64,000 nt of DNA. It comes from Viridothelium virens. Taxonomy: Eukaryota; Ascomycota; Dothideomycetes; Trypetheliales; Trypetheliaceae. The DNA lies in the NCBI GenBank assembly GCA_010094025.1, contig ML991774.1:684821-748820 (forward strand), in the 5' to 3' direction. Of this stretch, positions 34,658-51,790 are shown one piece after another. A model generated the notes under the pieces. That model saw only the letters and a program-made list of their open reading frames with translations, did no database searches and was not told the origin of the DNA. The stretch's first letter is position 1. Each line of letters opens with the position of its first letter. The translations under genes and the position numbers were made by a program.

Positions 34658-35323
34658 CTACCATTTGCCTCTGAGCGTAATGACGACCCAGTCCCCCTTG
34701 TCATCTGTTTCCTTCTTTACGTTGGTGGAAAAGCTTATGGCGCTCATGATGCCATCGCCGAATTTCTCGTTCAGAACAGCCTTGTATGCATATCCGTAAT
34801 TCTGGACAATCTCGTATAGCCGGTAGATCAAAGGCTCCTTGGGTGGCATGTCCATTGTCCTGCCCCGATCAGGGTGCCCTGCCAACTGCGACTCAAGTTT
34901 ATCTGCTGGTATACCGAGTAAGTCTGACAAATTCTTAATGTCCTCGGCATTTGCCATAGCCTGGCCGTAAAATAGAGCCGCAACTGCTACTTCATCTCGG
35001 CCGAGCTTCTTAGCAATGGCCTCAAATGTCAAGTTCTTCTCTTTCTTTGCGTCGAAAAGAGTCACCGAAGAACTTGGTAGGCGGGGGGCGAGGGAGCTCT
35101 ACAATCTGGTCAGTCAAGAGTCAGCCTAAGAAATAGGGACTCGCACATCCAGCTTTGCAACAGGCTTGTCTGCAGATGCCATTCTACGAGACTGATGGAA
35201 CTGGCGACCAGGGGTAAGTTGGGTCGAGACTGCGATTGAAGGAACAATGACCCTCCTAGACAGTGGATTTAATGCACGCTGGGCAAGGCAGTTCGAAAGA
35301 AGTGCAGAACGGGACAACGACAT
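34658..35323 (-). CDS. Cyanate hydratase (cyanase) with N-terminal presequence
   Basis: It converts cyanate and bicarbonate to ammonia and carbon dioxide through carbamate. Two exons: 35323-35147 and 35098-34658, intron 48 bp (GTGCGA...TTGTAG), 205 residues. The cyanase body starts near residue 57 ([20 protein letters not shown]), with a helix-turn-helix-like N-terminal domain and the catalytic part [20 protein letters not shown]...GIMSAISFS, holding the Arg, Glu and Ser of the active site. The first 47 residues ([20 protein letters not shown]... ending RQFHQSRRM) are Arg/Ser-rich without acids, like a mitochondrial presequence. An internal ATG ([12 protein letters not shown], residue 48) would give the normal cytosolic length, so two products are possible. 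Confidence 0.92.
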
Positions 35324-36730: not shown

Positions 36731-37069
36731 GTAAGATTACCTCATCGAACACAGTGATACGAAGTCTGTCTAACCCAATTTCTACAGCGCCAGTCTCTCT
36801 CGACTTCACTACTCAAACCCAGGTCTTCAACAATGGCTATTGAAACCATCAACAACATTGCCGACTTCCGCGGCTCGTCGGACTTGGGCTGCACGATACA
36901 GCGTGGTAGTACCGACTCTGGCTGCACCGTCCAGCGTGGTAGTACCGACTTTGGCTGTACAGTCCAACGGGGTAGTCCCGACTCTGGCTGCACAGTCCAG
37001 CGTGGAAGCACCGACTCTGGCTGCACCGTCCAGCGTGGTAGCATCGATTCTGGCTGCACCGTCATGTAA
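36731..37069 (+). CDS. Small gene encoding six 11-residue repeats (RGSxDxGCTVQ)
   Basis: The coding frame is 36833-37069, 78 residues: a 12-residue leader (MAIETINNIADF) and six back-to-back units of 11 residues with the consensus RGSxDxGCTVQ, filling the protein to its stop. The ATG context (caacaATGGC) is good, and a typical intron of this genome (36731-36787, GTAAGA...CTAAC...CTACAG) lies in the leader. The six units vary mainly at synonymous sites: the Arg codon is CGC, CGT or CGG; Ser is TCG, AGT or AGC; Gly, Thr, Cys and Gln also change codon. Arg, Gly, Ser, Asp, Gly, Cys and Thr remain fixed, which argues for selection on this protein frame. Positions 4 (S/T/P/I) and 6 (L/S/F) vary. 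There is no signal peptide, transmembrane segment or dibasic cleavage site. I know no family like it. Confidence 0.6.
36869..37066 (+). repeat. 33-bp tandem repeat, six copies
   Basis: Six contiguous 33-bp units, each starting with an Arg codon (CGC/CGT/CGG) and followed by a Gly codon. The period is a multiple of three, so other frames through it also stay open; that is why the codon-level substitution pattern, not openness, is the evidence for coding. Confidence 0.95.
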
Positions 37070-37979: not shown

Positions 37980-39452
37980 ATGTCCAGTCTCGGATCACCT
38001 TCGCCTCCGGGCTCGCCGTCTTTCAGAGGCCGACGAAGACCGTGGGCGAGGAAGTGCGAACGATATTGCTGCTCCGTTCTCTCGTGCTTCCCGCTGGTAT
38101 TCGTATATGGATTGACAAGTTGGGCTGTCTGGGTTGAAGCTGGGATTGGGCTACTACCCATCAAAGCATGGACTGGTGAGTGGTCATTTAGACTGTCCTT
38201 GGATCTCTTGAATAATCATGACTACTGCTACTGATATCTGATCTTAATAGGCTATACAACATCCATCCTTGGCGTTATTCTTTATGTCCTTCTTAACTGG
38301 TCCTACTCGGTAGCGGTCTTTACGGATGCTGGCTCTCCAATGAATACCCAAGATGGTTATAGTCATCTTCCCACGGACGATGAACAAGCGTATACATCCT
38401 TTACAGTCAAATCTACAGGAGACATACGATTCTGTAAGAAATGCCAGGTCAAGAAGCCAGATAGAGCGCATCACTGTTCTACATGCCGACGCTGCGTTTT
38501 AAAGATGGATCACCACTGCCCCTGGCTGGCTACCTGCGTGGGCTTGCGCAACTACAAACCTTTCCTCCTATTCTTGATCTACACATGCTTGTTTTGCTGG
38601 CTCTGCTTCGCCGTCGCCATCACCTGGGTCTGGTCTGAAATCCTCAGCGAGAACCAATTCGCGCAGATGCTGATGCCCGTAAACTACGTCATGCTCACCG
38701 TCCTCGCCGGCATCATCGGACTCGTCCTCAGCGGCTTCACCTTCTGGCACATCTACCTCGCATACACCGGTCAAACCACCATCGAAAGCCTCGAAAAGAC
38801 TCGCTACCTCTCCCCGATCCGGAAGGGCCTCCAGAACCACATCAACGGCCCCCGAAACTACGTGAACGGCGTCCCCACCCCCTCGTACGGCCAACAACTC
38901 GCCGAAATCCATGCCAACGCGCTCCCAGGCATTACCCGCCCCGAAGAAGGCGACGCCTCTTCGCCCGCCACCGCCTCCCTCCGCAGCAACTACCGCGACC
39001 TCGAGCTCGCGCGCGAGCGCGACCGCTACCAGGAGTACCTGGACGAGCGCGACTCGGAAAAGCTGCCGAACGCGTTCGATCTCGGCTGGCGACGCAACCT
39101 CACGCACGTTTTTGGCGAGCGTCCGCTGTTGTGGTTCCTGCCCGTCTGCAACACGACGGGCGACGGCTGGCGCTGGGAGGCCAGCAAGAAGTGGCTCGTT
39201 GCGCGAGACGACATCTCGAGGGAGAGGGCGCGGCTGAGGGGTGCGGAGCCCCAGCAGGAGCATGCGGCTGAGGATCGCGCGCGGTTGCTGAGTGGGAGTC
39301 CGAGGGGCCGTGTTCAGAGGGGAGCGAATGCGTCGCCAAGGGGAGCGAGACGGATTGATGAGGATTATGCGTACCCGAGTGGGTCGCTTAACGAGGCTTC
39401 TAATTGGAATGATGTGCCGGATGATATGTTGAGTAGTCGAAGAGCGCGATGA
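37980..39452 (+). CDS. PFA3: DHHC palmitoyltransferase, Pfa3-like
   Basis: An S-acyltransferase of the vacuolar/Golgi Pfa3 type; yeast Pfa3 palmitoylates Vac8. Two exons: 37980-38175 and 38251-39452, intron 75 bp (GTGAGT...TAG), 465 residues. Layout: short basic cytosolic N-terminus, two transmembrane helices (LSCFPLVFVYGLTSWAVWV and TSILGVILYVLLNWSYSVAV), the Cys-rich domain (FCKKCQVKKPDRAHHCSTC...) with the catalytic DHHC in CVLKMDHHCPWLATCVG (about residue 150), and two more helices. After these come the TTxE motif (TTIES) and the NAFDLGWRRNL block (PaCCT-like) typical of Pfa3. The C-terminal 100 residues are disordered and basic. The 3' two thirds are GC-rich, C-ending first and then G-ending. 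Confidence 0.9.
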
Positions 39453-49894: not shown

Positions 49895-51790
49895 TTAAGT
49901 TGCCTTGCTCCCCGCAAAAGGTTGAGTGTCAAAATGGTGTAAATTCGGAGGGAATTTACAGTACTCCTGAAAGACACACAGACGAAGTCCCTTCATAGTC
50001 GACGGCAGTGGGCAATGATGTCCATAGATGCACTTGGGATCTGCACATGCGGGGCCTCGAACGCAGGGATGATCAATCCTTGCGCGTAGCTTCAAGGTCT
50101 GCATCTCTGCTTCAGTAGGATTGTAGTCGTGTCTCTTGGTGCATTTCTCGCCGAGGGGGCAGTCGTTGCGGAGGTAGTGAGTGTAGCAGAGCCCGAGATT
50201 ACGGACCCGGATGGACTCGTGCTTCTCCCATTTAGGAAGCTCGGAATCAATGCGCTGCCCTTTTCGATTGCGTGGGATGTAATCTAGATCCAACCTAATT
50301 TCCGGTTCTGGAGTTTGAGGTAAGCTGACTGGCTTCTGTGCAGGCCCAGCCGATGTTTGTGATTCTGTTCGTAGAGAAGAGGTCTGCGGGTCTTCAGTAA
50401 ATGGTGTGGCTGGACCAGTTAGCTGCATTTCTGACATCTGTGACCCGGGAGGCGTGGTTTGCTGCTAGGCCACAGAGCAAAAACTCTGTTCTGATTTTGG
50501 TTGTAGAGCAGAGGTCTGCTGGTCTTCAGCAATTGGTGTGGCTGGACCAGTTACCTGCATTTCTGACAGCTGCGACCCGGGAGGCGTGGTTTGCCGCGAG
50601 GCCACAGAGCAAAAGCTCTGTTCTGATTCTGATGACTCCTTGCTGATGAATTGTGCTGGGGGTGTCTTACTTTTGCTAGCCACTCGACTAACGTAAGGCG
50701 TAGACAGATTCGATATTGTCGAGGTTCGGAACAAGTCTCCTAGTTGGGTCGTTGCAAAAGGCACTCCAGCCCAAGTCCGTTCCGATGGAGCTTCTACTAA
50801 TGTTACTCTGTGCTGCATGTTTTGCTCTCCGATGCGTTCCAGCATTTGGACGTAGGCAGCGGTGCGGGGGCCACCGAAAAAGATTCCGCGACAGTGGGTA
50901 TTGTGGAGGTGCAAATTGAGAAGCTCTAAACCGGTTCTATGTTAGTTTCTACATGTCCCAGAAGGGTTCTGCGAACAGCACATACCAGGTATCTTGTCAT
51001 CAGCGCCAAACCAAACAGATCCAGTATCAATCATATCAAATAGCTTGTTGCCCCTCATCAAGCCTTGGCAAAATTCAACAAATCGGAGGATTGAGGGACT
51101 GATACGATTTCGGAGTAGCCAGCTCCCAAGATTGTCCATCCTGCCATAGAACCGAGCAAGAACTGTGCATTCGGATGGCAGATCAGTGAACACGCTTTGG
51201 GCATATTCAAGGACTCTATCGTGCAAGTCATTAGCAGCCCGGAGGCCACCGCTGTCTCCTTCGCGCAGAAAGTCGTTTGAGAACTGCACTGGTATTAGCT
51301 AGAGGTTCTCCAGGGAAGCTTCTTTGTGAAAGGGGATTTATTTGTAGCCTTCGCCAGATCCTCGTAGGGGATGACTCACGAGTAACCCATCGAGGTCGAT
51401 GAGAACCAAAACAAAAGGAGCAAGTTTCTGTGAGGATTAGCTTTGAGTTAATGGAGTACTTTTGGGAAAGTCTTACCAGGCGACTTTGTAATTCACTAAT
51501 GTGCGCCTTCAGACCTTTCTCCCTATCTTCAGCGCTTTGAAGTAGGTATTTGCGTTCTTCTTCACGTTGCTCTCCGTCCTGTTTATGAATTTGACTCAGA
51601 TATTCGTATCGAGCAAAAAGCTCCTAATAGGGACGTTAGTCTAAGAATGGTGGCGAATGGTTTTGTAGGCTACCTCAATGAGAAGGTCTTTCTGCTCCTC
51701 GATGGTCTTGATCTGGTGGTAACGGCCGCGAAGAGCCGTGATCGTGCCATCATCGACTCTCTTGGAAACGGCCTCCATATTCAAGGCCAT
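49895..51790 (-). CDS. CCCH zinc-finger protein with N-terminal DUF7923-type domain
   Basis: A probable RNA-binding protein. Proposed exons: 51790-51674, 51623-51477, 51427-51380, 51283-50986, 50925-50555 and 50464-49895 (516 residues). The first five exons are joined by clear introns of 50, 49, 96 and 60 bp. The N-terminus has a coiled coil (to about residue 88), then an alpha/beta domain (LAPFVLVLIDLDGLLFSNDF... GIFFGGPRTAAYVQML). The C-terminus has a perfect C-x8-C-x5-C-x3-H finger (starting LCYTHYLRND) and a second C-x5-C-x4-C-x3-H one. The last junction is inferred. The gene carries a 132-bp tandem duplication, and a TAG at 50467-50465 interrupts the frame. A CAG/GTAACT donor in one copy and that TAG as acceptor in the other define a 90-bp in-frame intron that removes it. 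The alternative is a truncated gene lacking its fingers. Confidence 0.75.
50361..50624 (-). repeat. 132-bp direct tandem duplication inside the CCCH gene
   Basis: Two copies, about 50361-50492 and 50493-50624, period 132 bp (44 codons). They encode near-identical stretches (SEQSFCSVA.QTTPPGSQ.SEMQ.TGPATP). They differ at scattered sites, among them the ones that create a GTAACT donor in one copy and a TAG acceptor/stop in the other. Confidence 0.9.

Follow-up and report, generated by a model that had tools for sequence, protein, structure and literature searches.

A gene in the 64-kb window (the whole stretch of DNA analyzed here) very probably encodes a multicopy lipopeptide (a-factor-type) mating pheromone precursor of a filamentous ascomycete. 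We read its sequence in this way because the predicted protein ends in CTVM and every inner repeat unit ends in CTVQ or CTIQ; because its layout resembles those of the Huntiella a-factors and of HPP1, a cyanate lyase gene adjoins it, the protein has no dibasic site or lysine, and one copy was found; and because the genome encodes Ste3, Ste2, a farnesyltransferase beta subunit, Ste14-type, Ste24, and Rce1-like enzymes, and MAT genes. Counting against this reading are the published motif (LI)GC(TS)VM, matched by none of the six units, the absence of Gly-Tyr, a weakly hydrophobic leader, a synteny of one shared neighbor, the breadth of the enzyme families, and the lack of a canonical alpha-factor gene among our matches. 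Precursors of this kind are already known from other fungi, and the sequence itself is new as far as searched. The gene had been called undescribed-looking in an earlier note made from the DNA letters; this holds for the sequence (a literature search with the repeat unit gave no match, and no Pfam family scored above the cut-off for the repeat protein) but not for the kind of gene.

Table 1. Features of the pheromone precursor gene and its two neighbors (window positions).
Feature	Position	Strand	Evidence or remark
Cyanate lyase (cyanase), divergent neighbor, two exons as read	34658..35323	-	Pfam PF02560, E 3e-32 on 34658-35065
Cyanate lyase first exon	35126-35323	-	ORF list; no Pfam match of its own
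Predicted 57-nt intron in the 5′ untranslated leader, GTAAGA...CTAAC...TACAG	36731..36787	+	Pattern scan
Pheromone precursor reading frame, 78 aa and TAA stop	36833..37069	+	ORF list, translation
N-terminal leader MAIETINNIADF, 12 residues	36833..36868	+	Without signal-peptide-like hydrophobic stretch
Unit 1, RGSSDLGCTIQ, most diverged	36869..36901	+	
Unit 2, RGSTDSGCTVQ	36902..36934	+	
Unit 3, RGSTDFGCTVQ	36935..36967	+	
Unit 4, RGSPDSGCTVQ	36968..37000	+	
Unit 5, RGSTDSGCTVQ	37001..37033	+	
Unit 6, RGSIDSGCTVM, stop codon directly after	37034..37066	+	
Terminal CaaX (CpaX) box, CTVM	37055..37066	+	
DHHC palmitoyltransferase, downstream neighbor, 5′ end approximate	37980..39452	+	Pfam PF01529, E 1.3e-39 on 38340-39449

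Translation bears out the proposed architecture of a 12-residue leader followed by six contiguous 11-residue units (Table 1). The array was detected by Tandem Repeats Finder with a period of 33, 86% matches, and 0% indels, as one of three rows in the window. All six units start with RGS and end with C-T-[VI]-[QM]. Residue variation, which the earlier note had placed at unit positions 4 and 6, is indeed found there, and additionally once at position 10 (V/I) and once at position 11 (Q/M). The protein terminates as GCTVM-stop, in which C-T-V-M constitutes a CaaX (CpaX) prenylation box, and the CTVQ or CTIQ endings of the five inner units are latent CaaX boxes. Glutamine at the last place of such a box suits farnesyltransferase. 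Methionine at that place has likewise been read as farnesylation (PMC3068285, available text). Among the 298 ATG-initiated ORFs of at least 40 aa in the window, 12 have a cysteine fourth from the end, and two, the pheromone frame included, end in C-[TSNQVILAM]-[VILM]-[MQSACT]. These boxes explain the single cysteine of each unit as a prenylation site, rather than as a disulfide partner or as the metal-binding or stacking residue previously suggested.

The protein contains neither lysine nor dibasic sites, and it has no tyrosine, hence no Gly-Tyr motif near the C-terminus as in many a-factors. The highest 15-residue Kyte–Doolittle mean in the whole protein is 0.3. The leader, MAIETINNIADF, is weakly hydrophobic (mean 0.59), with one threonine and no serine; a hydrophobic N-terminus is a required a-factor criterion in PMC13037118, and a Ser/Thr-rich N-terminus is a supporting trait in the accessible part of PMC10569646. 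The lack of both a signal peptide and dibasic sites had been held to speak against a secreted, Kex2-processed peptide. We see no such stretch or site either, but an a-factor-type precursor should be without both, and their absence is therefore no evidence against a secreted peptide. A multicore peptide precursor, one of the options raised earlier, is in line with the pheromone reading. An alpha-factor precursor was considered and rejected, as no signal peptide, Kex2 sites, or WCxxxGxxC-type unit was seen in the protein. The sole Pfam match of the protein, Bacteriocin_II (E 0.015), falls below the cut-off and was taken as chance. At E <= 0.001, the protein has one match in the 30.7-Mb genome; among viral contigs and prokaryote genomes, 0/3 and 0/164 pattern matches, respectively, were upheld by tblastn.

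Comparison between the units supports selection on the protein, as the earlier note had argued from codon changes. Variation affects 18 of the 33 unit positions, distributed as 4/11, 4/11, and 10/11 over codon positions 1, 2, and 3. It had been suggested to check whether substitutions are rarer at codon positions 1–2 than at position 3; relative to the unit consensus, 5, 5, and 16 of 26 substitutions fall at the three positions (binomial p 0.003). Within the first ten codons of units 2–6, 8/11 substitutions are at codon position 3 (p 0.009). A neutral minisatellite without a protein product could equally present itself as a tandem array with 0% indels in an intergenic gap, but the sense-frame pN/pS of 0.28 (null median 0.88) was reached by 0/1000 null sets mutated regardless of frame, pN/pS exceeds 1 in four of the six frames, and the terminal CaaX box and the neighboring gene also speak against it. 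We consider this explanation barely conceivable.

The opposite strand carries a 107-aa ORF (36742-37065, -) with TVQPESVLPRW repeats, whose pN/pS is also low (0.25, P 0.006; the value covers five units, the frame shift dropping unit 1). This low value arises because the antisense ORF has third codon positions in common with the sense frame. The codon test therefore shows coding selection but not, on its own, the strand, and the antisense ORF is a warning to anyone who applies frame tests to tandem arrays. That the opposite strand is the coding one, the shared low pN/pS notwithstanding, is highly unlikely. Unit 1, which differs from the other units by 12 to 16 bases, is less conserved in the antisense frame (residue differences of 4–5/10) than in the sense frame (3–4/11), which mildly favors the sense strand, and we know of no kind of protein that the antisense frame resembles. 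Strict intron signals sit on the sense strand: the pattern has four matches on the + strand of the window and none on the - strand, the 57-nt leader intron noted earlier being one of the four; it lies upstream of the frame, in the 5′ untranslated leader. Codon-usage scores gave no separation of frames, and CAAAG elements upstream (4 in 1 kb versus 2.05 in shuffles) are not telling. The predicted leader intron, the CaaX end, and the gene neighborhood together decide, at the level of sequence, for the sense strand. The earlier claim of a gene on the + strand is very probably correct, as is that of selection on the protein.

The gene and that for cyanate lyase are immediate, divergent neighbors, with 1.5 kb between their ATG codons. 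The cyanate lyase has cyanate hydratase 6xgt as its best PDB match (E 1.1e-65). Its first exon contains an in-frame upstream ATG with an Arg-containing leader ahead of MASADKP, and a longer, perhaps mitochondrial form might be made. The pheromone gene had been described as alone in a gene-poor gap; the size of the gap was given correctly, but its telling neighbors, the cyanate lyase and the DHHC palmitoyltransferase, were left unnamed. In the available text of PMC3068285, N. crassa, M. grisea, and G. zeae have their a-factor gene near cyanate lyase, with a downstream position given for C. globosum and M. grisea; the h-type gene of N. haematococca (Nectria) lies between cyanate lyase and EBP2; and order and orientation at this locus vary, the arrangement being lost in Trichoderma. 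In the genome analyzed here, EBP2 and the pheromone gene share a contig, about 390 kb apart. The synteny thus amounts to one shared neighbor, which is divergent and not downstream. Since the accessible parts of the Huntiella (PMC10182648) and Leotiomycete (PMC10569646) a-factor papers make no mention of cyanate, and pheromone loci of the Ceratocystidaceae show no consistent synteny (PMC13037118), we treat the neighbor as support, not proof. If a single cyanase and ~10,000 genes are assumed, the chance of adjacency to cyanase is about 2 in 10,000 per gene.

Other large ORFs in the window carry domains of general cellular genes or have no Pfam match. The scan took in 20 of the 27 window ORFs of at least 230 aa, with the DHHC ORF entered minus its first 35 residues, and the domains found include DNA polymerase delta, RRP5-type S1, DHX29-type helicase, ubiquitin-conjugating enzyme, importin alpha-type Arm repeats, MAP65/ASE1, POT1, rhomboid, inositol polyphosphate kinase, and MFS transporter, among others. 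No RiPP tailoring domain was detected in these 20 ORFs. Fungal RiPP precursors have a signal peptide, Kex2 sites between cores, and tailoring genes nearby. A precursor of a secreted cyclic peptide of this class, with one core per unit, would account for the repetition of a core whose variable residues keep to fixed places, but is very improbable for a protein without a signal-peptide-like stretch or dibasic sites and with no tailoring domain among the ORFs scanned. Elsewhere in the window, 50360-50631 holds a tandem array of a 132-nt unit (2.1 copies, 90% matches); in one - frame, both copies give similar translations, separated by a stop codon.

The same genome encodes receptors and enzymes with which an a-factor-type pheromone would work. 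A Ste3 receptor gene is on contig C5 (the match was confirmed), and a Ste2 receptor gene is on C7. Prenyltransferase-beta matches occur at three loci; the one of these that was compared, on C32, has as its best PDB match 4l9p, the CaaX farnesyltransferase Ram1. Also encoded are Ste24 with a CAAX-protease N domain, a Ste14-type methyltransferase, and an Rce1-like match. The same family searches match prokaryote controls (ICMT in 5/14, M48 in 10/14, and Rce1-like in 11/14 genomes); the family labels are therefore broad, and more specific identification is limited to Ste24 and Ram1. CaaX-processing enzymes serve other prenylated proteins as well.

A MAT1-1-1 alpha-box gene is present on C147, and HMG-box matches occur at eight places, one of which, on C150, has a split HMG box. 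We take this last gene to be MAT1-2-1. Since MAT1-1-1 and the MAT1-2-1-like gene are both present, self-fertility of the strain is possible, provided that the assembly does not combine two strains. C147 and C150, both short, have inverted stretches of 76–85% identity in common, a pattern that may reflect homothallism, a rearranged MAT locus, or a mixed strain. The MAT1-1-1 alpha-box region also has a 253-bp, 92.5% identical match on C69:116082-116324, with no further match between the two 9.9-kb stretches compared. We place the fungus among the filamentous ascomycetes by its Ste2/Ste3 and MAT genes and by an importin alpha whose closest PDB match is 4rxh, from Neurospora. The best PDB matches of the cyanase (6xgt, from Thermomyces), Ram1 (4l9p, from A. 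fumigatus), and importin alpha, drawn from a set with few filamentous ascomycetes, do not fix its class, for which Eurotiomycetes would be a guess.

Pattern searches for an alpha-factor gene in the genome returned one match to WCxxxGQxC, which carries an in-frame stop. The relaxed pattern WCxxxGxxC had 101 matches versus 76 in the reversed control, with no tight tandem cluster among the 100 of 101 matches listed; the nearest same-strand pair among these is 0.9 kb apart, on C64, and five matches that were examined are each a single occurrence. No canonical alpha-factor gene was found by these patterns, and a divergent one may exist. Four similar short DNA matches of the form WC[GK]K[IF]G[GW]GC lie on four contigs, with 2-kb surroundings that share no similarity; they are perhaps the ends of a dispersed element.

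In the maturation pathway that we propose, the precursor would be made in the cytosol, and Ram1/Ram2 would farnesylate the C-terminal cysteine of CTVM. Rce1 or Ste24 would then remove the last three residues, and Ste14 would methyl-esterify the cysteine. We propose farnesylation at CTVM, trimming, and methylation because the biochemistry of CaaX boxes is known and the enzymes are encoded. The N-terminal side of the peptide would be cut, and a Ste6-type exporter would carry the peptide out; its target would be the receptor Ste3 (PreA), either on a partner or, in a self-fertile mycelium, on that mycelium itself. At its simplest, the core would be the octapeptide RGS-x-D-x-G-C(farnesyl)-OMe, as the unit boundaries and the analogy with Huntiella suggest. 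For such farnesylated, methyl-esterified octapeptides, the calculated [M+H]+ is 1000.51 (RGSTDSGC), 1060.55 (RGSTDFGC), 996.52 (RGSPDSGC), or 1012.55 (RGSIDSGC and RGSSDLGC, so that units 1 and 6 coincide). The inner units are probably further copies, which a cytosolic protease might expose by a putative cut between Gln and Arg; we lean toward their being used because C-T-[VI]-Q and R-G-S are kept under selection. Recent exchange among units 2–6 (concerted evolution) could, however, produce some of the same conservation. We tentatively entertain a poly-CaaX polyprotein, in which a dedicated cytosolic protease would cut Gln/Arg at every boundary and release six farnesylated octapeptides of five sequences. 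If true, this would represent a route of lipopeptide maturation that involves neither Kex2 nor secretory-pathway processing, and the locus would be an ancient version of the a-factor locus that has stayed next to cyanate lyase in different classes of ascomycetes.

About as plausible is that only the last unit of the same gene matures, as in a single-copy a-factor, and that the inner five are spacer or a reserve for new terminal units. In its favor, a free C-terminus exists only at CTVM, and no protease that would cut at the Q–R junction is known to us. The Kex2 sites of HPP1 are dispensable (PMC3068285, available text), and the accessible part of PMC10182648 leaves it undecided whether the repeated a-factor of Huntiella is processed further. 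Set against it, R, G, S, D, G, C, T, and Q are kept in the five inner units (with V/I at a2) despite many synonymous changes, and a spacer would be expected to be held less tightly than the pN/pS of 0.28 implies. Both processing schemes are sub-cases of the pheromone reading, whose probability already includes theirs; the remainder lies with other processing schemes or a nonpheromone role.

Such a role would be that of a CaaX-anchored repeat protein, a membrane-tethered structural or signaling component. Many nonpheromone proteins bear CaaX boxes, and a single-sequence AlphaFold2 model places low-confidence short strands at residues 20–24, 31–35, 42–46, and 53–57, in four of the six units. The model offers no support for the beta-solenoid or amyloid fold imagined earlier, its mean pLDDT of 45 and pTM of 0.33 being too low to read either way. 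We judge an anchored protein unlikely: there is no confident fold prediction and no Pfam family above the cut-off, and both the latent CaaX box in each unit and the cyanate lyase neighbor are left unexplained.

Short length, loose conservation, and a frequent lack of annotation make a-factor genes hard to recognize, and an additional find is therefore useful. The locus suggests a practical search, for a short frame with CaaX boxes beside cyanase, and the array provides a clean case for studying how inner CaaX units are processed. According to the available text of a 2023 paper (PMC10569646), which presents Leotiomycete candidates, all a-factors found until then in filamentous ascomycetes were from Sordariomycetes.

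The CTVM at the stop codon, the length of 78 aa (below 100 aa) without a signal-peptide-like stretch, and the adjoining cyanate lyase are characters of the a-factor type, the last being a supporting trait and not a defining one. N. crassa mfa-1 has one unit only. With the single-copy a-factors of Sordariomycetes, mfa-1 and others, the present gene shares, as far as they are described in the texts available, a CaaX box at the stop and a cyanate lyase nearby; it differs in the absence of the Gly-Tyr motif. CTVM is also the commonest ending of the putative Leotiomycete a-factors, which differ in their length of 45–64 residues, and no tandem array is described for them in the accessible part of PMC10569646. 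The a-factor-like pheromone ppgB of Aspergillus fumigatus (Krappmann et al. 2025), cited as recently reported in PMC11787670, is possibly a direct counterpart, known here from that citation alone; for A. nidulans, the part available of a review table (PMC6562746) lists no a-factor pheromone.

A likeness is also seen with the h-type precursors, HPP1 and its Fusarium relatives, which in the available descriptions have a repeated GC(T/S)V motif, one copy of which is the C-terminal CaaX box, and no predicted signal sequence. Trichoderma reesei HPP1 has three (LI)GC(TS)VM copies, one being the C-terminal box, and is essential for male fertility, while its Kex2-site mutants are still fertile (PMC3068285, available text). 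The present protein likewise repeats the motif, in six units of which the last ends in CTVM. None of the six units fits the strict (LI)GC(TS)VM, the nearest being LGCTIQ in unit 1 and SGCTVM in unit 6. Whereas HPP1 has, per the same available text, three copies and two Kex2 sites in T. reesei, the present protein has six contiguous units, inner boxes that end in Gln, and no Kex2 site. The accessible part of the PMC3068285 screen reports HPP1 orthologs only in Hypocreales, and its authors allow that others, with a differing motif, may go undetected. As far as its locus is described there, the h-type gene of N. haematococca shares the cyanate lyase neighbor.

In the Huntiella a-factors, contiguous 12-residue repeats place Arg first and the CpaX box last, with up to five per protein (PMC10182648, available text). 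Their units have Gln as the fifth residue and, in nearly all cases, Pro ahead of the CpaX box, whereas those described here have 11 residues and Gly before the Cys. Huntiella has several genes, the first locus being flanked by tubulin and nucleolar protein genes in the portion available, and the present genome has one, beside cyanate lyase. With these Ceratocystidaceae precursors, as there described, our protein shares its short length, its contiguous Arg-to-CpaX units, and a terminal box at the stop codon.
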